Assembly: GCF_003014675.1 (NCBI RefSeq)
Contig: NZ_PYAU01000001.1
Coordinates: 3,100,001-3,164,000 of the forward strand
Length of the DNA: 64,000 bases
DNA from: Labedella gwakjiensis
GTDB taxonomy: Bacteria > Actinomycetota > Actinomycetes > Actinomycetales > Microbacteriaceae
Reading direction: 5' to 3'
Made by a program: the position numbers and the translations under genes. Each line of letters begins with the position of its first letter. The first letter of the stretch is position 1. The notes beneath the pieces were generated by a model. It ran no database searches. It was not told the DNA's origin and saw only the letters and a list, made by a program, of their open reading frames with translations. Shown in pieces: positions 1 through 13,572 of this stretch.

Positions 1-846
1 GTGCACCTGAACGGTGGCCTCGGTGATGATGCCGAGGCGTCCCTCGCTGCCGAGGATCGCCTCGCGCACGCTCGGACCCGTCGAGGCGTTGGGGATCGGC
101 CGGATGACGAGGGTGCCGCCGGGCTGGACCACCCGCAGGCCCTTCGTGATCTCGGCGATGTCGCCGTACTTGTCCGACTGCATGCCGGACGAGCGCGTCG
201 CGATCCACCCGCCGAGGGACGAGTGCGTGAAGCTGTCGGGGTAGTGGCCCATCGTCCAGCCGCGTGCCCCGAGCTGCTCCTCGAGGTCCGGGCCGAGCAC
301 GCCGGCCTGGAAGGTCGCGAGCCCCGAGTACTCGTCGATCTCGATGAGCTTCCGGAGTCGACCCATGTCGATGGAGGCGATCACGCGCTCCTCGGCGACG
401 GGCGGCTCGAGGCTGCCGGAGATGTTGCTTCCGCCGCCGAACGGGATGAGGACGGCGTCGTTCTCGACGGCCCACGACACGATGAGCTCGACCTGCGCCT
501 CGTCGGCGGGATAGAGGACCACGTCGGGGACGCGGGGGAGCAGGTGTGCGCGGAGCCGCAGGAGGTCTCGGATGCTCTTGCCGTAGGTGTGCACGACGCG
601 CTCGAGGTCGTCGGTGAGGGCGTAGCCGGCCCCGACGATCGCGGTGAGGGCGGTGTGGGCGTCGTCGGAGAGCCGTGAAGCGGGGACCTCGACGGAGGAG
701 AAGTCGTCGACGGGCGCCGGCGGCGTCGAGACGTCGAGACCCACGGCCTTCCGCACGAACGGCGCGAACGCCGGCTTGTCCTCGTGGTGGAAGCCGACTC
801 CCTCGACTCCCCACCCCCACCACTTCATGTGCGCGACGTCGGTCAT
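1..846 (-). CDS. FAD-linked oxidase, alkyl-DHAP-synthase-like (partial)
   Basis: First 282 codons of a FAD-binding oxidoreductase; the C-terminus lies beyond the left edge. The start region holds KWWGWG near residue 8, a stretch typical of alkyldihydroxyacetonephosphate synthase (AGPS)-like proteins. The glycine-rich FAD loop FGGGSNISGSLE lies at about residues 136-147, followed by GWIATRSSGMQSDKYG. In that family the enzyme swaps the acyl group of acyl-DHAP for a fatty alcohol, the committed step of ether-lipid synthesis. The ATG overlaps the stop of the upstream acyltransferase gene (ATGA), so the two are probably translationally coupled. The nearby fatty acyl reductase, two acyltransferases and SDR support the lipid role. 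Alternative: a D-lactate or glycolate oxidase of the same FAD family; the missing C-terminal half would decide. Confidence 0.8.
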   Translation of the reverse strand, partial: MTDVAHMKWWGWGVEGVGFHHEDKPAFAPFVRKAVGLDVSTPPAPVDDFSSVEVPASRLSDDAHTALTAIVGAGYALTDDLERVVHTYGKSIRDLLRLRAHLLPRVPDVVLYPADEAQVELIVSWAVENDAVLIPFGGGSNISGSLEPPVAEERVIASIDMGRLRKLIEIDEYSGLATFQAGVLGPDLEEQLGARGWTMGHYPDSFTHSSLGGWIATRSSGMQSDKYGDIAEITKGLRVVQPGGTLVIRPIPNASTGPSVREAILGSEGRLGIITEATVQVH

Positions 847-1589
847 GCTGCCCCTTCGTTCCGTGACGCGCCTGACGACGGGTCGATCCTGCGTTGTCCA
901 TCGACGCCGGGTTCGGCGAGCGAGAGGTAGAGGTCGCGCACGCTCGACTCGATGCGGCGGTTGAAAGCCGTCACGGTCTCGCCCGCGCGATGCACGAGGG
1001 GCGCGCCGAAGGCGACGGCCACGGGAGGCCGGCCGCGGACGGGCCAGTTGCGGGTCCGCGGCATCGCGGCCTGGGCACCGAAGACAGCTACGGGTACGCA
1101 CGGCACCTGCGCCTTGATGGAGAGCGCGGCAGCCCCGGCCTTGAAGGGAGCGATCGTCGTGTCCCGGGACCGCGTCCCCTCGGGGAAGATCAGCACGGGC
1201 ACGCCGGCCTCGAGGAGCGTCGTCGCGAGTCCCTTGGACCGCAGCTCCCCGACACGGTCGACGGGGAAGGCGTTGAAGAACAGGGCGGTGAGCCCCTTCC
1301 TCCACCAGACGTCGAAGAAGTAGTCGGCCGCGGCCGCCGCCGCGAGGTAGCGGCTGTGGCGGTGGGGGAGCGCGCCCATGACGAGCGGTGCGTCGAGGTG
1401 ACTGGAGTGGTTCGCCACGATGACGAACGTCTTCGGGAGATCGTCGAGACGGTGCGTGCCGTGCGTGGAGACGTGCACGAGGGACCAGACGAGCGGCTTC
1501 AGGAGGAGTCGCTGAGCGACGAAGCGGGCACCGGCGTGCAGGGATGAGGTGTAGCGGGTGCGGCGTCGCGATCGCCCTGGTCGTTCCAC
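843..1589 (-). CDS. 1-acyl-glycerol-3-phosphate acyltransferase (PlsC family)
   Basis: A 248-residue PlsC-type acyltransferase. The catalytic H-x4-D motif is NHSSHLD (about residues 60-66) and the phosphate-binding motif is FPEGTRS (about 137-143). The family moves an acyl chain from acyl-CoA or acyl-ACP to a (lyso)phosphatidate-type acceptor at the inner membrane face. It sits between an SDR reductase and the AGPS-like gene and overlaps the latter by 4 nt. In this setting it could acylate DHAP or an alkyl-glycerol phosphate rather than the ordinary lysophosphatidate. The start is taken as GTG; the first 15 residues are arginine-rich and the true start could be slightly downstream. Confidence 0.87.
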   Translation of the reverse strand: MERPGRSRRRTRYTSSLHAGARFVAQRLLLKPLVWSLVHVSTHGTHRLDDLPKTFVIVANHSSHLDAPLVMGALPHRHSRYLAAAAAADYFFDVWWRKGLTALFFNAFPVDRVGELRSKGLATTLLEAGVPVLIFPEGTRSRDTTIAPFKAGAAALSIKAQVPCVPVAVFGAQAAMPRTRNWPVRGRPPVAVAFGAPLVHRAGETVTAFNRRIESSVRDLYLSLAEPGVDGQRRIDPSSGASRNEGAA

Positions 1590-1664
1590 TCGCTCAGAGT
1601 AGTGCGAATCCGACGCGAATCGAAACGGTCACCGTAGCGATACACTCGCAACGGCGTTATCCGC

Positions 1665-2441
1665 TCAGTGTCGGCGGCTCGACGAGATCCGGCCGGACAC
1701 CCAGCGGATGGCGCCACGGGGAGCGTGCCGCGCGAGCCACATCAGCACACGGAACCGCACCGAAGGGATCGAGATGACGCGTCCTCTCGCGACGTCCCGC
1801 AGGCACTCGGCGACGAGCGCATCCGCGTCGATCCACAGGAACGACGGGATGGACGATGCCCGGATCCCGGCGCGTTCGTGGAACTCGGTGCGGACCCAGC
1901 CGGGGCAGAGCGCTGTGACGCCGACGCCCGTCCCCGCGAGTTCCACCGCGAGCCCCTCCGAGTACGTGGTCACCCACGCTTTGACGGCAGAGTAGGCGCC
2001 CATGGTGATGAACCCGGCTGTGCTCGACGTGTTGACGATGTACCCGCTCCCACGCGCCGACATCGCCCGTCCTGCGGCCCCTCCGAGGACGAGGACGGCG
2101 CGGACCATGACGTCGAGCGCCCGCTCGTGCAGCGTCGTGTCCTCCGCGAGGAGTGCGTCGTGCACGCCGAAGCCGGCGTTGTTCACGAGCATGTCGATCG
2201 GCCGTTCGGCGCGTTCGAGCACGGCGGCGACACGACCGACGTCCTCGCGATCGGCGAGATCCGCGGCAACCGTTTCGACTTCGACTCCGAACCTGCTCGA
2301 GAGGTCGGCGGCCGCGGTGGCCAGCCGGTCGGCGTCGCGGGCGACGAGCACGAGATCGGTTCCGCGGGAGGCGAGGGCGCTCGCGAAGGCTGCGCCGATG
2401 CCGGAGGTTCCGCCGGTGATGAGGGCTATGGGCATGGGCAT
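1665..2441 (-). CDS. Short-chain dehydrogenase/reductase
   Basis: A classical SDR of about 258 residues. The N-terminal cofactor motif TGGTSGIG is at about residues 9-16, NNAG follows in the middle, and the catalytic serine and YSAVK (Tyr-x3-Lys) lie near residue 155. Such enzymes use NAD(P)H to reduce keto groups. It is the first gene of the leftward set SDR, acyltransferase, AGPS-like, with a 75-nt gap to the acyltransferase. A role as acyl- or alkyl-DHAP reductase would complete an ether-lipid path, but that is inference; SDR substrates cannot be read from sequence. The start is ATG at 2441; an adjacent GTG at 2444 is equally possible. Confidence 0.85.
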   Translation of the reverse strand: MPMPIALITGGTSGIGAAFASALASRGTDLVLVARDADRLATAAADLSSRFGVEVETVAADLADREDVGRVAAVLERAERPIDMLVNNAGFGVHDALLAEDTTLHERALDVMVRAVLVLGGAAGRAMSARGSGYIVNTSSTAGFITMGAYSAVKAWVTTYSEGLAVELAGTGVGVTALCPGWVRTEFHERAGIRASSIPSFLWIDADALVAECLRDVARGRVISIPSVRFRVLMWLARHAPRGAIRWVSGRISSSRRH

Positions 2442-2482
2442 CACGATACGACAGGCTCGTGACGGCGGCCCTCACGCCGCCA

Positions 2483-2509
2483 GGGCTCGAGACGACGCCG
2501 GTCGAGCCC
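2483..2509. promoter_or_regulatory. 8-bp-arm dyad between divergent lipid operons
   Basis: GGGCTCGA and its exact reverse complement TCGAGCCC are separated by 11 nt. The dyad lies in the 126-nt region between the leftward SDR gene and the rightward ferritin-like gene, so it could be a shared operator. It could equally be a chance structure in G+C-rich DNA; no cognate regulator gene is adjacent. Confidence 0.35.
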
Positions 2510-2567
2510 GAGATCGCAGAGACACGATGACGACGAACACGACGAGCACCCCACCGGAGGAACACGA

Positions 2568-3395
2568 ATGACCGAGACCGCCGACGCCCAGCGCGGCTTC
2601 GACATCCGGGCCTTCACGCGCACGGCCGTCGGGAGCCACGCCGACACGCTTCCCCTCGAGGAGTTCGCCGAGCGCCCGCTGACGGCTCGGACCGTGCGCA
2701 CGCTCGCCTACCTGCGCGACGTCGAGCGCTCCACGATGCACCACATGCGCGACGTCCTCGTGACGCCGTCGCACAAAGACGCTCGTCTCACGGCGTTCCT
2801 CGCCACGTGGGCCTTCGAGAAGTACTGGATCGCCGATGCCTTCGACCGCATCGTCGGTGCTCACCCGGCGCCCGTGCGCGCCGAGCGCGGAGTGATCGGG
2901 CGGGCGCTCCACCGCGTCGACGAGACCCGCGACCGCCTCGCGCCGATCGGCACGGCGATCGCCGCGAACCTCATCGGAGAGGACGTGATCGCGACGCACG
3001 TCACCCGCGGGACCATCGACGAGTACTGGACCCAGGAGGTGTACAGGGCCATCGCCGACGCCGAGGCGCGGCCGGAGCTCACGGAGCTCCTGGCGACGTT
3101 CGCCGACGTGCGCTCCCGCCACCGCGTCTTCTTCGAGGACGAGGCCGTGCGTCGCCTGGCGGAGACCGAGGGGGCGCGACGCCTCACTCGGGCGATGCTC
3201 TCCCACCGTTTCCTCCCCACCGGGATGCGGGACGAGCCGTCGGCCGAGACGCGGCACGTCTTCCGTTCGCTCTTCCCCGACGCGCGATCGCGCGGCCGGA
3301 TCGCCCGGATCGATCGCCGCATCGACGCGCTTCCCGGCGTCGGCGGACTGCGTGTGATGCAACGCGCCGCACAGCGATTCGGAGCGGCGGCATGA
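2568..3395 (+). CDS. Ferritin-like protein with degenerate di-iron site
   Basis: A 275-residue helical protein that aligns along its length with the intact di-iron protein at 8123. Shared anchors are DVxxxTxxxxRDxLVTPSH near residue 50, the D-E-Y/N-E-W helix, and a conserved C-terminal LPGVGGL/MPGMEGL stretch. Where the paralogue has EEFWH, this protein has EKYWI (His lost); where the paralogue has QEARH, it has VRSRH (Glu lost). Two metal ligands are therefore missing and it is probably a non-catalytic partner or scaffold. It has a good GGAGG ribosome site and heads the rightward set; its stop overlaps the next start (ATGA). The family is ferritin-like/acyl-ACP-desaturase-like; the exact function is unknown. 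Confidence 0.65.
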   Translation: MTETADAQRGFDIRAFTRTAVGSHADTLPLEEFAERPLTARTVRTLAYLRDVERSTMHHMRDVLVTPSHKDARLTAFLATWAFEKYWIADAFDRIVGAHPAPVRAERGVIGRALHRVDETRDRLAPIGTAIAANLIGEDVIATHVTRGTIDEYWTQEVYRAIADAEARPELTELLATFADVRSRHRVFFEDEAVRRLAETEGARRLTRAMLSHRFLPTGMRDEPSAETRHVFRSLFPDARSRGRIARIDRRIDALPGVGGLRVMQRAAQRFGAAA

Positions 3396-5821
3396 CCGGC
3401 GCCGAGATGTCCGACGGCGAGCAGGCCGCGATCCGCGCGCTCGAGGACGCCCTCGGCGAGGGCGCTCTCGCGAACCAGCACATCCTCCTCACGGGTGCGA
3501 CGGGATTCGTCGGCCAGGCCCTCCTCGAGAAGCTCCTCGCCGAGTATCCGAGCACGCGCATCAGCGTCCTCATCCGGCCGCGCGGCTCCCTCACGGGCAC
3601 GAAGCGCCTCACGAGCCTCATGCGGAAGCCCGTCTTCAAGCCGTGGCGCGAGCGCGTGGGGGCCGAGGAGGCCGACCGCCAGGTCGCCGAGCGCGTCACC
3701 GTCATCGAGTCGAGCATGGGCGACGTCGCCGAGCTGCCCGGCGACCTCGACGTCCTCATCCACAGCGCGTCGACGGTGTCGTTCGACCCGCCGATCGACG
3801 AGGCGTTCCGCACGAACGTCCAGGGCGCCGTCGGACTCTACGAGGCGCTCCTGCGCACGGGATCCGACCCGCACGTCGTGCACGTCTCCACCGCCTACGT
3901 CGGCGGCATCCGCAAGGGCACGGCCGTCGAGGCCTCGCTCGAGCACGCCGTCGACTGGCGGACGGAGCTCGACGCGGCGATCGCCGCCCGAGCGGCCGTG
4001 GAGGCGTCGTCACGCCGACCCGAGGTGCTCCGCTCCCTCATCGCCACGGCGCGCGCCGAGTCCGGCAAGGTCGGGCCGCAGGCCGTCGCGGCCGCAGCCG
4101 AAGAGGGCCGGCGGGAGTGGGTGCACAAGCGCCTCGTCGAGTACGGCCGTTCGCGCGCGCAGAGCCTCGGCTGGGCCGACGTCTACGCCCTCACGAAGTC
4201 GCTCAGCGAGCGCGTCGCCGAGGACCTCTGGGCGGGCAACGGGCACCGGTTGTCCGTCGTGCGTCCCGCGATCATCGAGAGCGCCCTCGCGCACCCGTTC
4301 CCCGGCTGGATCGACGGCTTCAAGGTCGCCGATCCGCTCATCATCGCGTACGGTCGCGGGCTGCTCCCCGAATTCCCCGGACTGCCCGACTCGATCCTCG
4401 ACATCATCCCCGTCGACATCGTCGTGAACGCGACGCTCGCCGTGGCCGCGACGCCCCCTCCAGTCGATGCTCCGCGGTACTTCCACCTGAGCTCGGGCGG
4501 CCGTAATCCGCTGACGTTCCGCGACATGTACGAGAACGTCCTGCGGTACTTCAGCGCCAACCCCATCCCGGACGACCAGCGCGGACACATCCGTGTCCCC
4601 GCCTGGGCGTTCCCGGGAAGCAAGGCGATCGAGCGCGCCCTCGCGATCAACGAGAGGGCCAACGTGGCCGCCCGTCGCCTCCTCCTGCGCCTGCCGTCGT
4701 CCGCGACGACGCGCGGCTGGATGCGCGGGGTGTCGTCTCGCGCGCAAGACCTCGAACTCCTCCGCAGCTACGCCGACCTGTACCAGTCGTACACGCAGGC
4801 GGAGATCGTCTACGACGACAGCCGGACGGCCGAGCTCGGCCGCGCCGTCGCCCCCGACCGCCAGGCCGTGCACGGGTTCGACGCCGCGTCGATCGACTGG
4901 GACGACTACATGCAGCGCGTCCACCTCCCGGCGGTCACGACCCTCATGAAGACGTTCTCGTCGCGTCCGCGTGCGAAGGCGATGGGGGAGAAGGCACTGC
5001 CGACGAACCCGCGCGCCGTCGCCGTCTTCGACCTCGAGGGCACGATCCTCGCCTCCAACATCGTCGAGCAGTACCTGTGGGTGCGCCTCGCGAGCCTGCC
5101 CACGTCGCACTGGCCGAGCGAGCTCGCCGACCTGCTCGCCTCGTTGCCGCGCTACCTCCAGGCGGAGCGCCGCGATCGCGGCGAATTCATCCGCACGTTC
5201 CTGCGTCGCTACGAGGGTGTCGACGACGCTCGCATCCGCGCTCTCGTGCGTGAGAGCGTGAGCGATGCGCTCCTCGCCCGCATGAAACCCGAGGCGATCC
5301 GTCGCATCCGCGCCCACCGCGCGGCCGGACACCGCACGGTGCTCGTGACCGGGGCTGTCGACGTCCTCGTCGAGCCGTTCGCGAGCCTCTTCGACGAGGT
5401 CGTCGCGAGCTCGATGCACGTGCGCGACGGGCGCTGGACCGGCTACCTGTCTGGCCCGCCCCTCGTCGACGAGGCCCGCGCCGCCTGGCTGCGGCTCTAC
5501 GCCGAACGGCACGACCTCGACCTCTCGGCGTCGTACGCCTACGGGGACAGCCACGCCGACCGCGCGTGGATGGAGCTCGTCGGGCACCCCCAGGCGGTCA
5601 ATCCCGACGCGGCCCTCTACGAGCACGCCGTCCAGAAGCACTGGAAGATCCGGTTGTGGCACGACCTCCGCCACCGCCGACTCGACTCCCTCGTGAGCGT
5701 CCTGCGCTCGGAATCGGCCCTCCAGCCTCCCGCCATCCCCACATCGGCCCACCCCGACCCGACGCGCGATCGTCCCGCCGTCGACGACACCCCCCACCCC
5801 GTCGAGGAGACCAGCGCATGA
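3392..5821 (+). CDS. Fatty acyl-CoA reductase fused to HAD phosphatase
   Basis: An 809-residue two-domain protein. Residues about 28-400 are an extended SDR of the fatty acyl reductase type (male-sterility/NAD_binding_4): GATGFVG nucleotide motif, HVSTAYVGG, and the YALTKS Tyr-x3-Lys pair. Residues about 545-770 are a HAD hydrolase: nucleophile motif FDLEGT, motif II VLVTGA, and acidic motif YGDSHAD as in SerB-type phosphatases. The first domain would reduce acyl-CoA to fatty aldehyde or alcohol, giving the fatty alcohol an AGPS needs; the second could dephosphorylate a phospholipid intermediate. Both ends overlap neighbouring genes by ATGA. A much longer reading-frame extension upstream is not coding; the ATG at 3392 is chosen from the overlap and the protein start. 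Confidence 0.82.
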   Translation: MTGAEMSDGEQAAIRALEDALGEGALANQHILLTGATGFVGQALLEKLLAEYPSTRISVLIRPRGSLTGTKRLTSLMRKPVFKPWRERVGAEEADRQVAERVTVIESSMGDVAELPGDLDVLIHSASTVSFDPPIDEAFRTNVQGAVGLYEALLRTGSDPHVVHVSTAYVGGIRKGTAVEASLEHAVDWRTELDAAIAARAAVEASSRRPEVLRSLIATARAESGKVGPQAVAAAAEEGRREWVHKRLVEYGRSRAQSLGWADVYALTKSLSERVAEDLWAGNGHRLSVVRPAIIESALAHPFPGWIDGFKVADPLIIAYGRGLLPEFPGLPDSILDIIPVDIVVNATLAVAATPPPVDAPRYFHLSSGGRNPLTFRDMYENVLRYFSANPIPDDQRGHIRVPAWAFPGSKAIERALAINERANVAARRLLLRLPSSATTRGWMRGVSSRAQDLELLRSYADLYQSYTQAEIVYDDSRTAELGRAVAPDRQAVHGFDAASIDWDDYMQRVHLPAVTTLMKTFSSRPRAKAMGEKALPTNPRAVAVFDLEGTILASNIVEQYLWVRLASLPTSHWPSELADLLASLPRYLQAERRDRGEFIRTFLRRYEGVDDARIRALVRESVSDALLARMKPEAIRRIRAHRAAGHRTVLVTGAVDVLVEPFASLFDEVVASSMHVRDGRWTGYLSGPPLVDEARAAWLRLYAERHDLDLSASYAYGDSHADRAWMELVGHPQAVNPDAALYEHAVQKHWKIRLWHDLRHRRLDSLVSVLRSESALQPPAIPTSAHPDPTRDRPAVDDTPHPVEETSA

Positions 5822-7371
5822 CCAGACCCGGCTACGTCCTGACCGTGGACGCCGACACCCCTCCTCTCGTCGTCTTCCGCGGAGGGAGCGTTCGCCTCGA
5901 GCGACTTCCCTCCGGCGCCGAGGTCGTCTATCCGGCCGACGCGGAACCCGCGCTCCGTTCCCTCTCCGCCGAGCTCGACCGGGTGCTGTCGTCGCCGGAA
6001 GGCTCCGAGCCTCTCGATTCGCTCCTCGTCGCCGGGACGGTCCTGACGGTCGTCGTCGACGACCTGTCCCAGCCCGTGACCGCGACGAGCGGTGCCGACG
6101 TGCGGCAGCGCATCGTCGAGCGCGTCCTCGAGATGGCCGCGCGAGCGGGGGTCGACGACGTCCGCGTGCTCGCGGCGACGGGACTGCGGCGTCGTCTGAC
6201 ATCCCACGAACTGCTCTCCACCCTCGGCGAGCGGGTGTTCCGTTCCTTCGACGCCGGATCGCTCACGAGCCACGACGCCGAGGACGCCGAGGGCATGACG
6301 ACCGTCGGCGAGCTGCCCGACGGCTCGCCGCTCGAGATCGCCTCGCGCCTCGTGGAGAGCGACCTCGTGGTCGCCGTGCGCCTCGCCACGGCCGTCGGCG
6401 ACGAGGGCTCGCCCTCGATCGTCCCGTCCTTCGCGAGCGCCGCGACGGCGCGCGCGCTGACCCCGGTGCCGGGGACCGACCGCATCACGGCGGAGCAGCG
6501 CGACGACGCCCTCGCCCCGTTCGTCGACACTCTCGGCGACCGCACACGGGTCTTCACGATCGCGGCGACTCTCGCCGACGCCCCCATCAAGAGCGTGAGC
6601 GCCTTCCTCGGGAAGCGCGAGCGCGAGTGGACCCTCCTCGACCGTGTGCGCTCGCGTGCCGTGCGCACCGCTGCCGCCGTGCTCCCCGAGGCCGTGCGTC
6701 CCGTCCGTTTCCCGGGCATCGGCCACGTCGTCACGTCCGTTCGAGCCGGCGCTCCCTCTGCCGTGCACGCCTCGATGGACGCCTTCCTCCGCACGGCGCG
6801 CCTCGCGAACCGTCCGGTCGGAGCCGACATCGCCCTCTTCGGCCTGCCGGACACGGGCTACGGAACGAGCGGGGCCCCGCTCGATCCGGTGAGCGTCGCC
6901 ACGCTCGGACTCGGTCAGGTCTTCGACGGCGTCTCGGCGGAACCCGTCGTCAAGCGCGGCGGCGTCCTGATCCTGTCCCACCCGCTCACGCCCACGTTCC
7001 ACCCCATCCACCACGCGGGCTACGTCGACTTCTTCGCCGACGTGCTCCGGTCGTCCACGGACGCATCGGTCATCGCCGAGGAGTTCGAGGAGGGCTTCGC
7101 ACGCGACGACTGGTACCGGCACCTCTACAGGACCAGCTCGGCCCACCACGCCCTCCACCCGTTCCACGCGTGGTACGCGACGGCCGCGGCCCGCGACCAT
7201 CTGTCCGACGTCATCGTCGTGGGCGGCGACCGCGAGACGGCCTCCCGTCTCGGTTTCCGCGCCGCGACGACCCTCGACGACGCGCTCGACATGGCCGGGT
7301 ACCGGCAGGACGGCGAGACGTCCCTCACCTTCGTGCACGGCACGCCCGTCCGCCCGGCGGCGCTCGCATGA
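5818..7371 (+). CDS. LarA-like (DUF2088) protein
   Basis: A 517-residue protein resembling the N-terminal half of lactate racemase LarA. Recognisable parts are VVDDLSQPV (LarA D-x-T-R-P region), VLAATGLRRRLTSHEL (LarA ATGxHRPxT region), SHDAED, and the PDGSPLEIASRLVESDLVVAV strand. The His-Arg-Pro of LarA reads Arg-Arg-Arg here, and the later E-P-H and G-G-R-K segments that hold the nickel-pincer cofactor are not recognisable. No larB, larC or larE maturation gene is near. It is therefore probably a fold relative with another role. It is locked into the lipid operon by 4-nt overlaps on both sides, so a lipid-related job is likely but unknown. Confidence 0.65.
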   Translation: MTRPGYVLTVDADTPPLVVFRGGSVRLERLPSGAEVVYPADAEPALRSLSAELDRVLSSPEGSEPLDSLLVAGTVLTVVVDDLSQPVTATSGADVRQRIVERVLEMAARAGVDDVRVLAATGLRRRLTSHELLSTLGERVFRSFDAGSLTSHDAEDAEGMTTVGELPDGSPLEIASRLVESDLVVAVRLATAVGDEGSPSIVPSFASAATARALTPVPGTDRITAEQRDDALAPFVDTLGDRTRVFTIAATLADAPIKSVSAFLGKREREWTLLDRVRSRAVRTAAAVLPEAVRPVRFPGIGHVVTSVRAGAPSAVHASMDAFLRTARLANRPVGADIALFGLPDTGYGTSGAPLDPVSVATLGLGQVFDGVSAEPVVKRGGVLILSHPLTPTFHPIHHAGYVDFFADVLRSSTDASVIAEEFEEGFARDDWYRHLYRTSSAHHALHPFHAWYATAAARDHLSDVIVVGGDRETASRLGFRAATTLDDALDMAGYRQDGETSLTFVHGTPVRPAALA

Positions 7372-8114
7372 CCGCGCGCGGCACGGCGTCGACCCTCGCG
7401 CCGCTCGTCGCCCTCGCCGTCGTCGCGCGTCGGCCGCTCCGTCGCGCCGCGGTGCGTGCAGCGGTCGATGTCTCGACGTGGGGACTCGACGACGTGGCGG
7501 AGGCGTCCGGTCCGTTCGTGTTCGCCGCGAACCACCCGAGCTCGCTCGACGGGCCCCTCCTCCGATCCGTCCTGGAGCCCGTCGTCGGCCCCGTCGTCGT
7601 GACGTCGGCACCGCGCTCCGGTCAGGGTGTCGCCGGTGCGGTGACCCTCGGGGCCGCTCGGCTCGCGATTCGGGCCGGCCGCAGCGTCGTGGTGTTCGCC
7701 GAGTCGGAGCGCGCGGACGACGGCGACCTGCGCTCGTTCGACGACACCGCGGCCCGTCTCGCCGTGGAGTCGGGAGCGGCGCTCGTTCCCGTCGCGATCG
7801 CCGGCACCTTCGCGGCCCTCCCTCCGTGGCGCACTCTCCCGCGAGCGGGTCGACGACGCGTGTCGGTCACGTTCGCCCGACCAATCCCCACGAGCGCGCG
7901 TGACGAACCAGCGGAGCTCGCCCACCGGGCCGAGCAGGCCGTTCAGACGGCCATCGACGGGACGCGCGGACCGTGGTTCGCCGCGCACCTCGCACATGCC
8001 GATTCCGCGCAGGCGGATGGTGCAGACTCAGGGGTGCAGCGAGCGCGTTGGCGGCGCATCTGGGACAGTTCAAGCAGGGACGCACGGTCGGCACGACGCC
8101 GGACGTGGAGTTAA
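7368..8114 (+). CDS. Divergent PlsC-type acyltransferase
   Basis: A 248-residue acyltransferase. The H-x4-D motif NHPSSLD (about residues 53-59) is intact, but the usual FPEGTRS glycerol-phosphate motif is replaced by FAESERADD (about 107-115), so the acceptor may differ from glycerol phosphate. The last 30 residues are arginine- and serine-rich and may be a tail without fold. The start overlaps the LarA-like stop (ATGA); the TAA stop is inside the AAGGAG ribosome site of the following ferritin-like gene. It could carry out the second acylation in the proposed ether-lipid route; this is inference from context. Confidence 0.77.
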   Translation: MTARGTASTLAPLVALAVVARRPLRRAAVRAAVDVSTWGLDDVAEASGPFVFAANHPSSLDGPLLRSVLEPVVGPVVVTSAPRSGQGVAGAVTLGAARLAIRAGRSVVVFAESERADDGDLRSFDDTAARLAVESGAALVPVAIAGTFAALPPWRTLPRAGRRRVSVTFARPIPTSARDEPAELAHRAEQAVQTAIDGTRGPWFAAHLAHADSAQADGADSGVQRARWRRIWDSSSRDARSARRRTWS

Positions 8115-8122
8115 GGAGCGAC

Positions 8123-8917
8123 ATGGCATTCGACATCGACAAGTACACGAAGACGTCGACCAACGTGAACTGGTCGGACCTCGACTTCGAGGAGTTCCGC
8201 ACCAATCCGCTGCCACCCGACACGCTGCGCAGCATCCGCTACATGGCCGACGTCGAGTACCACACCGTCTGCTATCTGCGGGACATGCTCGTGACGCCGT
8301 CGCACCGCGATGCCGACGTCACCGGGTTCATGACCATGTGGAACCGCGAGGAGTTCTGGCACGGCGAGGCCCTGTCAGCCGTCCTCGCCGCGCACGACAT
8401 CACCCTCGAGTTCGACGAGCTCAAGTCCAAGCGCCTCAAGCTCGGGTGGAAGGACCGCCTCGACCCCGTGAAGCAGTCCGTGCTCTCGAACCTCGTCGGC
8501 AAGGACTTCGTCGCCGTCCACATGATCTGGGGCGCCGCCAACGAGTGGTCGGCGGTCGCCGCGTACAACCGCATGGCGGACCTCGAGGGTCACCCGATCC
8601 TCGCCGAGCTCCTCCGCCGGATCGCCAAGCAGGAGGCCCGCCACGTCGCGTTCTACGCGACGCAGGCGCGCGAGCGGCTCGGCAAGAGCGTCGTGGCGCA
8701 GAAGTTCGCGCGCTTCGCCCTCAGCTCGTTCTGGGGCCCCGTGGGCTCGACGATCATGGACGAGGCCGAGGTCAAGCACGTCATGAGCCACCTCATGGGT
8801 GGACCGGACGGACGCAAGGCCGCGAGCCAGATCGACGCGCACATCGCGAAGATGCCCGGCATGGAGGGGCTCACGATCGTGAACGACTCGCTCGACAAGC
8901 GCGGGATCGCGGCCTGA
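8123..8917 (+). CDS. Ferritin-like di-iron protein (desaturase/oxygenase-like)
   Basis: A 264-residue four-helix protein with a full set of candidate di-iron ligands: DVEYH (about residue 51), EEFWH (about 77-81), NEW (about 138), and QEARH (about 172-176), the E, ExxH, E, ExxH pattern of acyl-ACP-desaturase and ferritin-like oxygenases. It would activate O2 at a di-iron centre; acyl or alkyl chains are plausible substrates, including an ether chain to form a vinyl ether. The start is ATG at 8123 with AAGGAG 5 nt upstream. It is 8 nt behind the acyltransferase stop and just before the diacylglycerol-kinase-like gene. The gene at 2568 is a degenerate paralogue. The exact reaction is unproven. 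Confidence 0.7.
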   Translation: MAFDIDKYTKTSTNVNWSDLDFEEFRTNPLPPDTLRSIRYMADVEYHTVCYLRDMLVTPSHRDADVTGFMTMWNREEFWHGEALSAVLAAHDITLEFDELKSKRLKLGWKDRLDPVKQSVLSNLVGKDFVAVHMIWGAANEWSAVAAYNRMADLEGHPILAELLRRIAKQEARHVAFYATQARERLGKSVVAQKFARFALSSFWGPVGSTIMDEAEVKHVMSHLMGGPDGRKAASQIDAHIAKMPGMEGLTIVNDSLDKRGIAA

Positions 8918-8949
8918 CCGAGCGGATCCCCGGCCTGCGACGGGCCGTC

Positions 8950-9885
8950 GTGGTGTACCACCCGCTCCGGGTCGACCTCGCGCGGCTGCGTCGCGAAGTC
9001 GCGCGTGAAGCGCGGCACGCGGGGTGGGGACCGACCGTATGGGTCGCCACGGAAGCGCACGACGGCGGCGCGTCCGCGCTCAGCGACGCGCTCGGGGCGA
9101 CCCGTCCGGACCTCGTGATCGCGGCCGGGGGAGACGGCACGGTGAGCATGGCCGCCGGAGCCCTCTCCGGTCGAAGCCTGCCCCTCGCCGTCGTTCCCGT
9201 CGGCACCACGAACCTCTTCGCCCGATCGGTCGGTGCCACAGGGAGTGTCGATCGTGCCGTCGCGCACGCGTTCGCGGCGATCGGGACGGGCACCCCTGAC
9301 GAGAGCCGCGTGGACCTCGGGCGATTCCGGGCGACGCTCGCCGACGGCTCGGTCGTCGAGAGGCCTTTCACCGTGATGGTGGGCGCGGGCATCGATGCGG
9401 CGATGGTCGCCGACACGCACCCCCGCGGCAAGGAGCGCTTCGGCTGGCTCGGCTACATCCAGGGCATCTCGGCGTCGATCTGGCGGAACGAGCGTTTCGC
9501 CGTTCGTGTCTCGCTCGACGAGGGTTCCGCGGTGTCCGAGACGGCTCACACGGTCGTGGTCGCCAACGGCGGCCTCCTGCCGGCGGGTCTCGTGTTCGTG
9601 CCGGGGGCCGTGGTGGAAGACGGCGAGCTCGACGTCATGGTGCTGCGCCCGCGCAGCGTTCTGTCCTGGGCGCGCCTCGCGGCGTGGTTCGTCGCGAGCG
9701 CCGTCCGGGCGCCGTCGTCGGTCGGCCGGGGTCTCGCCGGATCCGCGGTGCGCGTCACGCGGGCGGGCAGCGTCGATGTCTCCTTCGAGGTGCCGGAGCG
9801 CGCCGAGGCCGACGGCGAGGAACTCGGCCACGTCTCGCGTCTCGAGGCCTGGATCGAGCCGGGCGCACTCCGAATCGTCCGCTGA
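8950..9885 (+). CDS. Diacylglycerol/sphingosine kinase-like protein
   Basis: A lipid kinase of the DAGK catalytic family, about 311-323 residues. GGDGTVS is the ATP-binding motif, followed by PVGTTNLFARS and a conserved VGAGIDAAMV. It phosphorylates diacylglycerol-like lipids, recycling them to phosphatidate; in this locus the acceptor could be an alkyl-acylglycerol. The start is uncertain: the first strand RRAVVVYHP begins before the GTG at 8950, and the only in-frame codon upstream that could serve is CTG at 8914, which overlaps the previous stop as CTGA. The conservative GTG is given here. Confidence 0.8.
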   Translation: MVYHPLRVDLARLRREVAREARHAGWGPTVWVATEAHDGGASALSDALGATRPDLVIAAGGDGTVSMAAGALSGRSLPLAVVPVGTTNLFARSVGATGSVDRAVAHAFAAIGTGTPDESRVDLGRFRATLADGSVVERPFTVMVGAGIDAAMVADTHPRGKERFGWLGYIQGISASIWRNERFAVRVSLDEGSAVSETAHTVVVANGGLLPAGLVFVPGAVVEDGELDVMVLRPRSVLSWARLAAWFVASAVRAPSSVGRGLAGSAVRVTRAGSVDVSFEVPERAEADGEELGHVSRLEAWIEPGALRIVR

Positions 9886-9933: not shown

Positions 9934-10983
9934 ATGAGGCGACAGACGACCGCGACCCCGAAGGCACGACCGGGCGACAGGGTGGCCGTCCTGTCGCCCG
10001 CGCTGGCGGCTCCCGCCGTGTCCGCGGCCGTCCACGAGCAGGCCATGCGGCGACTCGGGGAGGTTACGGGACTCATCCCGGTGGAGTACCCGACGACCCG
10101 GCTCCTGAACGCGAGCGCGGAGGCGCGTGCGGCCGACGTCACGGCGGCCTTCGCCGACCCGACGATCCGCGCCGTGCTCGCCACCGTCGGGGGCGACGAC
10201 CAGATCACGGTCGTCCCGCACATCGATACCGACGTCCTCGCCGCGAACCCGAAGCCGTTCCTCGGATACAGCGACAACACGCACCTTCACAACCTCCTGT
10301 GGGGTCTCGGGGTCCCGAGCTTCTACGGCGGGTCCACGCAAGTGCACCTCGGGGCGGGTCCGGGCGTCGACGAGGTCCACCGCGTGTCGCTGCGGGCGGC
10401 CCTCCTCGACGGAGGAGAGATCGAGCTGACCGACCCGGGGGAGTCGGAGGACCACGGCCTGCTCTGGACGGATCCGCGTGCGCTCCATGAGGACGGCGAT
10501 CGCGAGCCCACCGGGCCGTGGGCCTGGGCGGGCCCCGCGCGTTCCGTGTCGGGGCGGACGTGGGGCGGGTGCATCGAGGTGATCTATCAGATCGCCCTCG
10601 CGGGGCGGATGCCCGCCGTCTCGGATCTCGAGGGCGCCGTCCTCCTCATCGAGACGAGCGAGGAGACCCCGCCGGCCGCGCAGGTCAGGCGCTGGGTGCG
10701 TTCGCTCGGGGAGGGCGGCATCCTCGGGGCCGTCGCGGGTGTACTCGTCGCCCGCCCGCCCGTGACCTCCTTCGAGAAGCTCGTCCCGGAGAAGCGGGAA
10801 CGCGACGCGCTGCGCGCGGCCCAGAGGGACGTCGTCGTCACGGAGGTGGCCCGCTACAACCCCGATGCCGTCGTGTGCGTCGGAGTACCGTTCGGACACA
10901 CCCGGCCGCAGTGGATCGTTCCCCACGGCGGTGTCGTCCGTCTCGACGGGGTGACCCGTACGGTGACCGCCGACTACAGCTGA
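9934..10983 (+). CDS. S66 family peptidase (LD-carboxypeptidase/MccF-like)
   Basis: A 349-residue serine peptidase of family S66. The nucleophile is in GYSDNTH (about residue 113), the catalytic Glu in LIETSEE (about 236), and the His in PFGHTRP (about 326), matching the Ser-Glu-His triad. Relatives cut the L-D bond of muropeptides during wall recycling (LdcA) or detoxify microcin C-type acyl-adenylates (MccF). The ...GSTQVHLG... insert and total length fit the MccF-like branch somewhat better, but this cannot be settled by eye. It appears monocistronic, ends in a hairpin terminator and faces the galactanase gene. Confidence 0.85.
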   Translation: MRRQTTATPKARPGDRVAVLSPALAAPAVSAAVHEQAMRRLGEVTGLIPVEYPTTRLLNASAEARAADVTAAFADPTIRAVLATVGGDDQITVVPHIDTDVLAANPKPFLGYSDNTHLHNLLWGLGVPSFYGGSTQVHLGAGPGVDEVHRVSLRAALLDGGEIELTDPGESEDHGLLWTDPRALHEDGDREPTGPWAWAGPARSVSGRTWGGCIEVIYQIALAGRMPAVSDLEGAVLLIETSEETPPAAQVRRWVRSLGEGGILGAVAGVLVARPPVTSFEKLVPEKRERDALRAAQRDVVVTEVARYNPDAVVCVGVPFGHTRPQWIVPHGGVVRLDGVTRTVTADYS

Positions 10984-10985
10984 GC

Positions 10986-11023
10986 GGCGGGCGTCTCCGT
11001 CTCGGGAACGAGAGACACCCGCC
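10986..11023. terminator. Convergent hairpin terminator
   Basis: GGCGGGCGTCTC pairs with GAGACACCCGCC with a single mismatch; the inner part can pair further (CTCG/CGAG). It lies between the converging S66 peptidase and galactanase genes. No long T run follows on either strand. Confidence 0.6.
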
Positions 11024-11030
11024 CCGACGC

Positions 11031-13484
11031 CTAGCTGTCAGCCGAGCGGCGGCGACGGAGCACGCGTGACCCGATGCCGAGGACACCGATGGCGAGCAGG
11101 GCCGCGGCGATGAGGGAGAGGAGCGCAGCGCCGCTCGCCCCCGTCACCGCGAGGCCGTCAGGCGCGGACGCGTCGTCCGGGGCGGACACCGACGGGTCGT
11201 CGGAGCCGTCGGGATCCGACGGTGCGGTGCCGATCGCCGCGGGAACGGCCACGGTCGACTCCGTCACGTTCCCGGCTCGGTCCGTCGCCGACGCGGTGAT
11301 CGTCCCGCCACCCGCCGCGGCGAGCGCGGAGACGTCGATCGGGCCCGTGTAGGAGGCTGCTGCACCTCCGTCGACGGCGTACTCGACCGTGGCGATCCCG
11401 GACAGGCCGTCGTCGGCGCCGACGGTCACACGGGCTCCCTCGGCGTCGAGCGTCGCGGTGACGCTCGGTGCCGTTCGGTCGACCCCGAACGTCGTCGTCG
11501 AGGCCGCGAGGGCGGCGACGTCCGCCGCCGGCCCGGCTGGGACGGCTTCGCCGAGCGACGGTGCGGGAGCGAGCGGCGCGCCCGCGCTGGCCGCGTCGCG
11601 CGTCACGGCGACGAGCCCCGGAGCGGCGACGCCGGCGTCCGCCGAGTGCTCGCCGTCCTCGTCCACGACGGTCGCATCCGATGCGGGCACGGCGGGACCA
11701 CCATCGATGCTCAGCTCGAGCGGCGCATCCACCGCGAGACCGGGGAGGGAGATCGCGGCCGAGACGGAGACCGCGCTGCGGAACCACCCGTCCACCCCCG
11801 CTTCGCCTACGAGGGACACGGACGGCGCGGCGGAGACGGTGTACGCGGTCTCGCCGAACTGTGCGGCCGCCGGCAGCATCCGACCGTCGTGATCGAACAC
11901 GGCCTGGTTCTCCCACGCGTTGCCGGATGCCGGGTCCTCGGGGTCCCAGCCGTTGCCCTCGACGGCCGTCCACGCCGGCTCCCAGTACACGACGCCGAGG
12001 CCGCGTCCGCCGGGTGCCGACGCGACGACGTCCTGAACGGCGCGCAGATTCGCCGCCTGGCCCTCGGGCGTCGCGGGGTAGCCCGCGACGAGCTCGGACT
12101 CGAGGTCGATGACGTTCTCCCACCCGAGGCCGGGCTGGTCGTCGAGCGTCCACGGGTAAGCCGTCTCCACGACGAGCACGTCACGGTCGTAGCGCTCCGA
12201 GAGCGTCGACACGGCGCCCTGCAGGTCGGCGAGGGACCCGTGCCAGTATCCGTAGTACGAGAGGCCGATGAGGTCGAACGGCACGTCGCGAGCCACGACC
12301 TCGTCGAACCACCAGGTGAGCCCGTCGATGCCGTTGTTGATGTTGGTGAGGTGCAGGATCACCTGCGTGTCGGGATCGACGGCCTTCACGGCCTCGGCTC
12401 CGGCGGTGAGGAACCCGGCGAGGGCGTCCCACTGCGGCTCGGACACGTCGTCGGTGGGGTCGACGTCCCACGTCTGACCGAGCGGCCAGAGCATGCCGGG
12501 GTTGATCTCGTTGCCCACCTGCACGTAGTCGGCCGTGATGCCGACAGCCGCGAGCGACTCGAGCACCTCCGTGGTGTGCTCCGACACCCGCTCGGTCACG
12601 GCGGCGGCGTCGAGTCCGACCCACGCGGAGGGCATGCCCTGGGCGCCCGGGTCCGTCCAGCGATCCGAGTAGTGGAAGTCGACGAGCAGTTCCATCCCGG
12701 CGTCGACGATGCGACGGGCCGAGGCGACGACGTCGTCCGTGTCGTTGTAACCGTCGGCGGGGTCGACCCACACCTTCAGTCGTCCGACGTTCGCGCCCGC
12801 CCCGGCGAGGGCGTCGATCGGGTCGACGGCGTTCCCGTCGGCGTCGGCGTAGGTCGCGCCGCGGTCCTCGTTCTTGGCCACGTTCGACAGGTCGGCCCCG
12901 CGGAGGGTGCGCTCGCTGCGACCCGCTTCGAGGGTCGCGCCGTCGATGCTCGCCCACGAGCCCGCCGGTCCGGCGGTCCGGAGTCCGACCGTGCACGACC
13001 CGCCCGAGACGTACGCGGACACCTCGAGGCGCAGCCACGCTCCGTCGGACTCCGTGGACGGCACGGTCGTCTCGCCGTCGAGCCCGCATCCGCTCGTCGT
13101 GATGGCGCTCGACGCGAGTCCTCCGCCCGACGTGACGTCGACCCCGAAGGTCCACCAGCCGTCGGCGAGGCCAGAGACGGTCTGCGTCGTGGCGACGGAC
13201 CCCTCGCTCTCGAGCCAGTGCGTGAGGCGCAGGCCCGACGTACCGCCGGTCTCGGTCTTCGCGGCACCCTCGGGCCCGTCTGACGTCCACCCGTCGAGTC
13301 CCGACTCGAAGCCGGGGTTCGCGAGAACGCCGGTGGCCGCGGCGGCCGGCGACGCCGTCAGCGGACCCAAGGCCAGGAGAGCGACACCCGCCGCGGAGAA
13401 GACCGCCACCGTGCGCCGCCTTCCCGATGCTCTGACCCGGGCCGCAGCGGTGTGGCCCCGAGGTGCGATGAGGGGTTCGGTCAT
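11031..13484 (-). CDS. ganB: GH53 arabinogalactan endo-beta-1,4-galactanase, wall-anchored
   Basis: An 817-residue secreted enzyme. Signal peptide at about residues 22-50 ends near ASPAAAA. Residues about 50-185 (LANPGFESGLDGW...) look like a galactan-binding CBM61-type module. The GH53 catalytic domain spans about 190-540, with the acid/base Glu in QVGNEINPG and the nucleophile Glu in VVETAYPW. Ig-like/Big repeats follow, then LAVTG, a hydrophobic segment and RRRR: a sortase-E-type LAxTG wall anchor. It cuts beta-1,4-galactan side chains of pectin outside the cell. Start is the ATG at 13484, preceded by AAGGAGGAC; a longer N-terminal reading is unlikely. It is the second gene of a leftward operon behind the GH42 gene. 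Confidence 0.9.
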   Translation of the reverse strand: MTEPLIAPRGHTAAARVRASGRRRTVAVFSAAGVALLALGPLTASPAAAATGVLANPGFESGLDGWTSDGPEGAAKTETGGTSGLRLTHWLESEGSVATTQTVSGLADGWWTFGVDVTSGGGLASSAITTSGCGLDGETTVPSTESDGAWLRLEVSAYVSGGSCTVGLRTAGPAGSWASIDGATLEAGRSERTLRGADLSNVAKNEDRGATYADADGNAVDPIDALAGAGANVGRLKVWVDPADGYNDTDDVVASARRIVDAGMELLVDFHYSDRWTDPGAQGMPSAWVGLDAAAVTERVSEHTTEVLESLAAVGITADYVQVGNEINPGMLWPLGQTWDVDPTDDVSEPQWDALAGFLTAGAEAVKAVDPDTQVILHLTNINNGIDGLTWWFDEVVARDVPFDLIGLSYYGYWHGSLADLQGAVSTLSERYDRDVLVVETAYPWTLDDQPGLGWENVIDLESELVAGYPATPEGQAANLRAVQDVVASAPGGRGLGVVYWEPAWTAVEGNGWDPEDPASGNAWENQAVFDHDGRMLPAAAQFGETAYTVSAAPSVSLVGEAGVDGWFRSAVSVSAAISLPGLAVDAPLELSIDGGPAVPASDATVVDEDGEHSADAGVAAPGLVAVTRDAASAGAPLAPAPSLGEAVPAGPAADVAALAASTTTFGVDRTAPSVTATLDAEGARVTVGADDGLSGIATVEYAVDGGAAASYTGPIDVSALAAAGGGTITASATDRAGNVTESTVAVPAAIGTAPSDPDGSDDPSVSAPDDASAPDGLAVTGASGAALLSLIAAALLAIGVLGIGSRVLRRRRSADS

Positions 13485-13572
13485 GATGTCGTCCTCCTTG
13501 ACGAATGCGGTTCTGTCGTGCGTGAAGCGAGTGCCGGCCATCGCGTGGTCGGCGGGTATCGGTGGAGCGGGG

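Follow-up and report, generated by a model that had tools for sequence, protein, structure and literature searches.

Which lipid would a member of the aerobic Microbacteriaceae make with an alkyl-dihydroxyacetone phosphate (alkyl-DHAP) synthase (AGPS), a fatty acyl reductase (FAR) and two ferritin-like proteins, and could one of these proteins form the vinyl ether bond of plasmalogens? The question is raised by positions 1-9885 of a 64,000-nucleotide stretch of DNA from Labedella gwakjiensis (positions 3100001-3164000 of the complete 3,838,939-base genome); the whole stretch is referred to below as the window. A preliminary description of the locus had proposed an aerobic ether-lipid pathway with a di-iron protein as a possible desaturase. 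Judged from its gene content, with every reaction predicted, the locus very probably makes alkyl ether lipids by AGPS-type synthesis. With much less assurance, we lean towards the whole reading, in which an aerobic AGPS-type pathway would be completed by a vinyl-ether step at the ferritin-like protein FerB, probably with its paralogue FerA. All the genes of the preliminary description were found, on the strands it gave:

1-846, minus strand: AGPS (alkyl-DHAP synthase), of which the N-terminal 282 amino acids lie in the window (full 556 amino acids at L003:14176-15846:-)
843-1589, minus strand: PlsC1, candidate DHAP or lyso-lipid acyltransferase, conserved beside AGPS (PF01553, 84.9 bits)
1665-2441, minus strand: short-chain dehydrogenase (SDR), candidate alkyl-DHAP reductase (PF00106, 1.1e-39)
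2568-3395, plus strand: FerA, ferritin-like paralogue with metal ligands lost, by residue comparison; candidate non-catalytic partner of FerB
3392-5821, plus strand: FAR-HAD, fusion of a fatty acyl reductase and a HAD-IB phosphatase-like domain (PF07993, 4.6e-45; PF12710, 1.7e-36)
5818-7371, plus strand: LarA-like protein, degenerate, with nickel-pincer nucleotide (NPN) cofactor residues lost (419 bits against a cut-off of 740); lineage-specific addition
7368-8114, plus strand: PlsC2, second acyltransferase of 248 amino acids (PF01553); lineage-specific addition
8123-8917, plus strand: FerB, ferritin-like di-iron protein with a complete ligand set; candidate vinyl-ether-forming desaturase
8950-9885, plus strand: YegS/DAGK-type lipid kinase, whose place behind FerB is confined to Labedella and Subtercola

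Identity of the AGPS

The complete 556-residue flavin adenine dinucleotide (FAD) protein matches AGPS of Dictyostelium (2uuu, 4.6e-114) and of guinea pig (4bby, 2.4e-82), to which it is homologous over most of its length, whereas the best non-AGPS chain is a putative oxidoreductase (3pm9, 5.1e-19), followed by even weaker matches to D-lactate dehydrogenase and glycolate oxidase. It carries the FAD_binding_4 (PF01565, 3.7e-31) and FAD-oxidase_C (PF02913, 1e-35) domains, and scores 123 bits with the NCBIfam model glcD, for which the cut-off is 567.9. In the alignment with the guinea-pig enzyme the residues at R419 and R515 (hand-counted), the tyrosine of the ACxYF motif and the SHHHGVG motif are identical, and R319, R413, Y474 and H510-512 are invariant in all 87 gene-called AGPS rows (84 distinct sequences, with seven rows belonging to a distant type of 35-38% identity). 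We take these two arginines, the tyrosine and the histidine triplet to have the catalytic roles that we associate with them from work on guinea-pig AGPS. The complete sequence sides with AGPS, as had been supposed earlier, and not with D-lactate or glycolate oxidases. We conclude that the FAD enzyme is a full-length AGPS, with acyl/alkyl exchange as its predicted reaction.

Other predicted enzymes and the proposed pathway

FAR-HAD aligns over residues 26-516 with a solved fatty acyl-CoA reductase (7eoz, 2.7e-46), although its C-terminal FAR region falls under the Pfam cut-off (PF03015, 27.8 vs 35.4 bits). The YxxxK motif is kept in 85 of 85 rows (81 distinct sequences), and a Pfam scan found FAR and HAD families only, without the acyl-CoA synthetase (ACS), acyl carrier protein (ACP) and acyltransferase (AT) domains of ElbD type. 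On this evidence FAR-HAD could supply the fatty alcohol for an ether-lipid pathway. Motif I of its HAD domain (window 5027-5044) reads DxE, not DxD, in 81 of the 85 rows. For the SDR the nearest NCBIfam model is mycolate reductase (159 bits, cut-off 380), and none of the best 25 NCBIfam models listed reaches its cut-off.

We propose that FAR would reduce acyl-CoA or acyl-ACP to a fatty alcohol while PlsC1 would form 1-acyl-DHAP, whose acyl group AGPS would replace with the alcohol to give alkyl-DHAP. The SDR would reduce this to 1-alkyl-glycerol-3-phosphate, a PlsC would attach the sn-2 acyl chain, and the HAD domain may then remove the phosphate on the way to diglyceride and glycolipid. FerB, probably with metal-less FerA, would oxidise the alkyl C1'-C2' bond with O2 to a vinyl ether, seen as dimethyl acetals (DMAs).

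Conservation of a six-gene core

Six genes form a divergent core, with AGPS, PlsC1 and SDR running one way and FerA, FAR-HAD and FerB the other; this layout was seen both in loci read from genomes of the family and in titled FerB loci. Of the 80 titled loci, which are the best-matching of 276 relatives, 60 hold the complete core, all 60 with a separate FerA match. The core occurs in Labedella, Subtercola, Herbiconiux, Lacisediminihabitans, Salinibacterium, Rhodoglobus and Glaciihabitans, in Agreia, Plantibacter, Galbitalea, Protaetiibacter, Homoserinibacter and two Frigoribacterium metagenome-assembled genomes (MAGs), among others. Phytoactinopolyspora (L140), which lies outside the family, carries it too, in a different gene order. 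Labedella endophytica (L098) has a FerB 98% and an AGPS 93% identical to those of the window. Of the genes described earlier, only these six belong to the conserved core; the LarA-like gene and PlsC2 lie inside the cluster in only 9 of the 60 core loci, all of them from Labedella or Subtercola.

Four ATGA overlaps that had been noted earlier are confirmed in the letters of the window: 843-846 (PlsC1/AGPS), 3392-3395 (FerA/FAR-HAD), 5818-5821 (FAR-HAD/LarA-like) and 7368-7371 (LarA-like/PlsC2). With gene gaps taken from a simple gene caller and pairs at least 3 kb apart omitted, 41 of 57 measurable AGPS/PlsC1 pairs and 48 of 59 FerA/FAR-HAD pairs of the titled loci have a gap of exactly -4. Because this spacing recurs from locus to locus, the overlaps are not chance.

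Presence of the two key genes is also correlated across genomes. Among 150 genomes of the family, close AGPS (at least 60% identity) was found in 40 and full FerB (at least 61% identity) in 44: 38 genomes have both, 2 AGPS only, 6 FerB only and 104 neither (Fisher p=9e-27, ignoring relatedness). Both AGPS-only genomes are fragmented assemblies, and one of the six FerB-only cases lies at a contig edge. Each of the 44 FerB genomes has a second, FerA-type match. In seven of seven Jiangella genomes no other core gene occurs in the DNA around FerB, and AGPS (62-64% identity) and FAR-HAD (54-56%) are found elsewhere (genome searches for these two at E<=1e-25, L148 left out); in four cases the FAR-HAD match spans one or two stop codons. 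Three Jiangella genomes were read around these genes, and there FAR-HAD, SDR, PlsC1 and AGPS form one run. Jiangella is thus a case of coupling in trans between FerB and the pathway genes.

FerB as an intact di-iron protein and FerA as its degenerate paralogue

The preliminary description had singled out one intact di-iron protein, and this holds for FerB, the product of gene 8123-8917: its ligands E45, E77xxH80, E141 and E171xxH174 are invariant in 24 of 24 sequences and follow the E, ExxH, E, ExxH order of soluble di-iron acyl-ACP desaturases (PF03405). The other ferritin-like gene, 2568-3395, is not intact. FerA of the window has lost three of the six ligands (E77 to K, H80 to I and E171 to R, in FerB numbering) and also carries S for H47. 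Of 24 FerA sequences, all have lost H47, 22 have K in place of E77, 17 have I in place of H80 and 20 have K or R in place of E171, and E45 is retained in 23, H61, W73 and E76 in 24 each and H174 in 21. By these comparisons FerA is a fast-changing, ligand-poor paralogue and FerB is strongly conserved. That a ligand-poor FerA is kept beside a conserved FerB suggests an active/inactive heterodimer.

The predicted structure of FerB is all-helical (predicted local distance difference test (pLDDT) score 83, predicted template-modelling score (pTM) 0.84), and FerB is probably a soluble enzyme. Its best, though weak, Foldseek matches are an acyl-ACP desaturase (7t63) and R2-like ligand-binding oxidases (R2lox); castor desaturase (1oq4) aligns with the model at a template-modelling score (TM) of 0.64 on the query. 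A profile search returned DesA2 of Mycobacterium tuberculosis at 0.0035 and, with a better value (5.5e-8) over 27 residues only, a designed helix bundle. FerB thus shares with soluble acyl-ACP desaturases, R2lox and DesA2 an all-helical ferritin-like fold and the order of its ligands. It differs from the soluble acyl-ACP desaturases in scoring under the PF03405 cut-off (16.8 vs 22.7 bits), in an identity of 12-15% in the listed fold matches and in being paired with an inactive-looking paralogue. Pfam, NCBIfam and PHROGs gave no confident family for FerA or FerB.

Known vinyl-ether enzymes and the dimethyl acetals of the family

Two vinyl-ether-forming systems are known, and the preliminary description had seen neither a PlsA/PlsR-like nor a CarF-like gene at the locus. 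The marker searches extend this to genomes. PF10520, the marker of CarF, was found in 0 of the 150 family genomes, that of the window included, and in 0 of 14 controls; the 150 presumably include S. vilae, and S. lobariae G171 lies outside this search. The silence of the model is informative because it does match 18 of 396 genomes of a phylum sample, 17 of them above the cut-off. PF09989, which we take to be the PlsA domain, was found in 0 of 53 genomes, among them G090 (S. vilae) and G171 (S. lobariae), with 4 of 14 controls positive. CarF/PEDS1 and PlsA are ruled out as vinyl-ether source to the extent of these two markers. PF09989 does occur in one of the 150 family genomes (G062, locus L202), which has no FerB match.

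DMAs serve to separate genera of the Microbacteriaceae (PMC5945732); here and below, published lipid data are given as they stand in the available parts of the papers. Subtercola vilae DB165 contains i-16:0 DMA (17.0%), a-15:0 DMA (3.2%) and a-17:0 DMA (1.9%), about 22% in total, and the same three amount to 6.9, 9.7 and 2.6% in S. lobariae, quoted from an earlier study; DMAs are low in Agreia and none are given for Frondihabitans (PMC5945732). A 15:0 anteiso aldehyde/DMA is reported for Frigoribacterium faeni and F. adelgis and not for two other species (PMC12823222). The whole locus is present in the genome of S. vilae DB165 (L103) and in a S. lobariae genome (L099), and Agreia bicolorata (L151) also carries the core. 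For L103, the AGPS match has identical contig number and coordinates in G170 and G090. Presumably the sequenced S. lobariae strain is the one that was measured. With cluster and published DMA side by side, the link drawn earlier between locus and DMA is strengthened, at strain level for S. vilae DB165 and at species level for S. lobariae.

One report on S. vilae gives about 22% DMA and another 15.6% 2-hydroxy C14:0 (2-OH C14:0) and no DMA, and 2-OH C14:0 is high in Frigoribacterium as well (PMC5945732, PMC9287328, PMC7033078, PMC12823222). Either a wrongly assigned peak or a further product could account for the 2-OH C14:0. Our literature search found no genes assigned to the DMAs of the Microbacteriaceae, in line with the earlier remark that no such gene set was known, and no paper joining Herbiconiux and DMA. 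The main text of the S. vilae genome paper contains none of the words dimethyl, DMA, ether, plasmalogen, desaturase and acetal (PMC6518244).

By elimination and by linkage to the core, FerB with FerA is the best candidate for the vinyl-ether-forming enzyme, an assignment to which we give about an even chance. Slightly more doubtful is the further proposal that the pair forms a third, unrelated class of such enzymes, a soluble ferritin-like di-iron heterodimer independent of CarF/PEDS1 and PlsA/PlsR, and is the source of the DMAs of the Microbacteriaceae.

Evidence against a vinyl-ether role, and alternative readings

Several observations weigh against this assignment. FerA and FerB occur without AGPS or FAR-HAD (E<=1e-25) in seven genomes, two of Leifsonia and five of Agromyces, so the pair is of some use even where the pathway is missing; around the five FerA/FerB-only family loci that were read, the neighbours vary from genus to genus. 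Conversely, G101 has AGPS, PlsC1, SDR and FAR-HAD together, while FerA and FerB are absent both from the 20 kb that were read and from the rest of its 85%-complete assembly, and G506 and G549 carry an AGPS of 59-60% identity and no FerB match. G033, from the genus of the window, lacks both a FerB match and a close AGPS. Three FerB genomes, G164, G165 and G166, lack close AGPS, G165 having one of 37% identity. In the phylum sample of 396 genomes, searched at 1e-60, FerB matches 23 and AGPS 76; both are found in 4, two of these outside the family, so that only 2 of the 20 FerB-matching genomes outside the family have an AGPS-like match, and a phylum-wide link between FerB and AGPS was not found. 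The Foldseek E-values of FerB are weak (best 8e-3, none <=0.001). On the chemical side, S. vilae is listed with 15.6% 2-OH C14:0 and, in the available part of that source, no DMA (PMC9287328), and the available parts of strain papers on Herbiconiux and Lacisediminihabitans report no DMA, though their method may not report DMAs.

A FerB tree bears on the genomes that have only the pair. In 106 rows (11 of 117 were removed as duplicates, as short or as L268), the FerA/FerB-only rows fall in one derived clade of 15, together with three core-cluster rows (G004, G035 and G087; approximate likelihood-ratio (SH-aLRT) support 98), in a tree made by a quick method with long branches and a distant root. 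From this single derived clade, FerA and FerB seem to have left the pathway rarely and to have kept some use. The earlier proposal survives in its AGPS-type ether-lipid part; its di-iron desaturase stands as the best candidate by elimination, yet the FerA/FerB pair is also found without AGPS and FAR.

Among the alternatives the strongest, possible and clearly less probable than the pathway with a vinyl-ether step, is that the products of the locus are confined to alkyl (plasmanyl) ether lipids, that FerB/FerA carries out another oxidation such as chain desaturation or alpha-hydroxylation, and that an enzyme encoded at another place gives rise to the DMAs of Subtercola. The seven genomes with the pair and without AGPS and FAR, the pathway genes without FerA/FerB in G101 and the scarcity of AGPS among remote FerB relatives (2 of 20) would all fit it. 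So would the 2-OH C14:0 of S. vilae, which, reported without DMA, makes hydroxylation by FerB a live rival, and the 17.0% of the same acid in both F. adelgis (PMC12823222) and F. faeni (published fatty-acid data). However, FerB lies with the rest of the core in 60 of the 80 loci, and F. adelgis has both 2-OH C14:0 and the anteiso-15:0 aldehyde/DMA (PMC12823222). Moreover, since the CarF and PlsA markers are absent, this explanation still needs a further vinyl-ether-forming enzyme.

It is very unlikely that FerB/FerA cleaves or recycles ether lipids instead of forming vinyl ethers: such a role would account for the pair in genomes without AGPS, but the pair is tightly coupled to synthesis genes in operons, and nothing in the other five core genes points to degradation. 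About as improbable is an aldehyde-to-alkane pathway, of the aldehyde-deformylating oxygenase (ADO) kind, or a wax pathway with AGPS as a bystander. A FAR does lie beside a ferritin-like di-iron protein, and the ADO 5k53 is among the weak FerB fold matches (rank 32), but desaturase and R2lox head that ranking, 60 of the 80 loci have AGPS, SDR and PlsC1 within the core, and the FAR can be aligned to the known structure of a fatty acyl-CoA reductase, its PF03015 region remaining sub-threshold. The least probable reading, which can be dismissed, makes the FAD protein an oxidase of lactate, glycolate or another hydroxyacid and leaves no ether pathway; the two FAD domains in common and the low glcD score are outweighed by a far closer similarity to AGPS (4.6e-114 vs 5.1e-19), invariant AGPS residues and adjoining FAR, SDR and PlsC genes.

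Genes added to the core

The preliminary description had also listed the LarA-like protein and the lipid kinase in the locus. The LarA-like protein does not belong to the conserved pathway and is restricted to 9 of 60 core loci; the kinase is a recurrent neighbour and not a constant one, lying within the fetched flanks of 19 of 60. Nine of these 19 kinase genes, those of Labedella and Subtercola, stand behind FerB; nine others are 85-667 bases away from AGPS, and one is 2.6 kb away from FerB. The core loci outside Labedella and Subtercola with the kinase beside AGPS are L119, L122, L124, L130, L166, L167, L168, L174 and L177, and a DAGK-type kinase also adjoins the distant (35-38%) AGPS type in L086, L087 and L271. 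The kinase may recycle alkyl- or diacylglycerol. For PlsC2 the Pfam and BLAST queries comprised 210 of its 248 amino acids, and its weak matches (23-32% identity) in titled loci are the PlsC1 gene.

In 13 of 13 Labedella and Subtercola rows (two genomes counted twice) the LarA-like protein has lost one lysine and two histidine sites that we take to be the NPN-binding positions of LarA, and LarC was not found in the four LarA-bearing Microbacteriaceae genomes tested; in these two genera an active NPN isomerase is ruled out by these two results. The protein seems to be a cofactor-less descendant that is still retained in the operon. A second module of FAR-HAD, LarA and PlsC, without close AGPS, occurs in Haloactinopolyspora (G164, L206), Actinopolymorpha (G165, L208) and an actinomycete MAG (G166, L207), each with FerB in the same genome. 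In G165 and G166 an alcohol dehydrogenase-like gene lies between FAR-HAD and LarA; LarC is near FAR-HAD in G164 and G166, and G166 also has LarB and an NAD-synthase-like gene. LarA of this module keeps the cofactor residues in four of four rows from the three genomes, two of which score 899 and 934 bits for LarAH14/15/16. FAR-HAD of the window is 67% identical to that of G164 and G166, 48% to that of G165 and 54-56% to that of Jiangella; judged from this pattern rather than from a tree, FAR-HAD, LarA and PlsC2 may have been acquired together.

The AGPS gene extends past the edge of the window and is followed by a TetR gene; a TetR-type gene stands at the AGPS end of 30 of the 60 core loci. On the other side, window 9982-15654 holds an LD-carboxypeptidase (S66) gene and then, on the other strand, GH53 and GH42 (beta-galactosidase) genes, an ordinary-looking galactan-use locus.

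Comparison with known ether-lipid systems

The AGPS route itself is already known, from animals and, in the available part of PMC9131029, from MXAN_1676 of Myxococcus; what is different here is the gene set and the candidate desaturase. As described there, the MXAN_1676-1674 operon of M. xanthus encodes AGPS, a FAR-GNPAT-like fusion and an NAD-dependent epimerase, CarF is present in the same organism, and disruption of MXAN_1676 had a minor effect only. The locus resembles this operon of a plasmalogen-making aerobe in bringing together AGPS, a FAR fusion, an acyltransferase and an NAD-dependent protein, but its FAR is fused to HAD instead of an acyltransferase, the search of the family yielded no CarF-type gene, and FerA and FerB are added. 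The myxobacterial elb operon likewise links FAR and HAD in an ether-lipid setting, with a HAD-like ElbB and an ElbD that has FAR, ACS, ACP and acyltransferase domains (PMC9131029); unlike ElbD, FAR-HAD has FAR and HAD domains only, and here AGPS lies in the same cluster.

The animal peroxisomal pathway (FAR1, GNPAT, AGPS, PexRAP/DHRS7B and PEDS1) takes the same logical steps as those proposed here, with a homologous AGPS, whereas no PEDS1/CarF-type desaturase was found here and a ferritin-like di-iron protein takes its place in the cluster. With the anaerobic PlsA/PlsR plasmalogen reductases the proposed pathway would share the class of end product, but not, by the PlsA marker domain in the genomes tested (0 of 53), the enzyme.

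Implications

If true, an AGPS-type, eukaryote-like pathway is common in one aerobic Gram-positive family, where 40 of the 150 genomes sampled carry a close AGPS. Should the vinyl ether be formed by FerB, this would be a third independent origin of plasmalogen synthesis, in which a probably soluble enzyme replaces the membrane protein PEDS1. The presence of the cluster in a sequenced, DMA-positive strain makes the genetic source of the DMAs testable.

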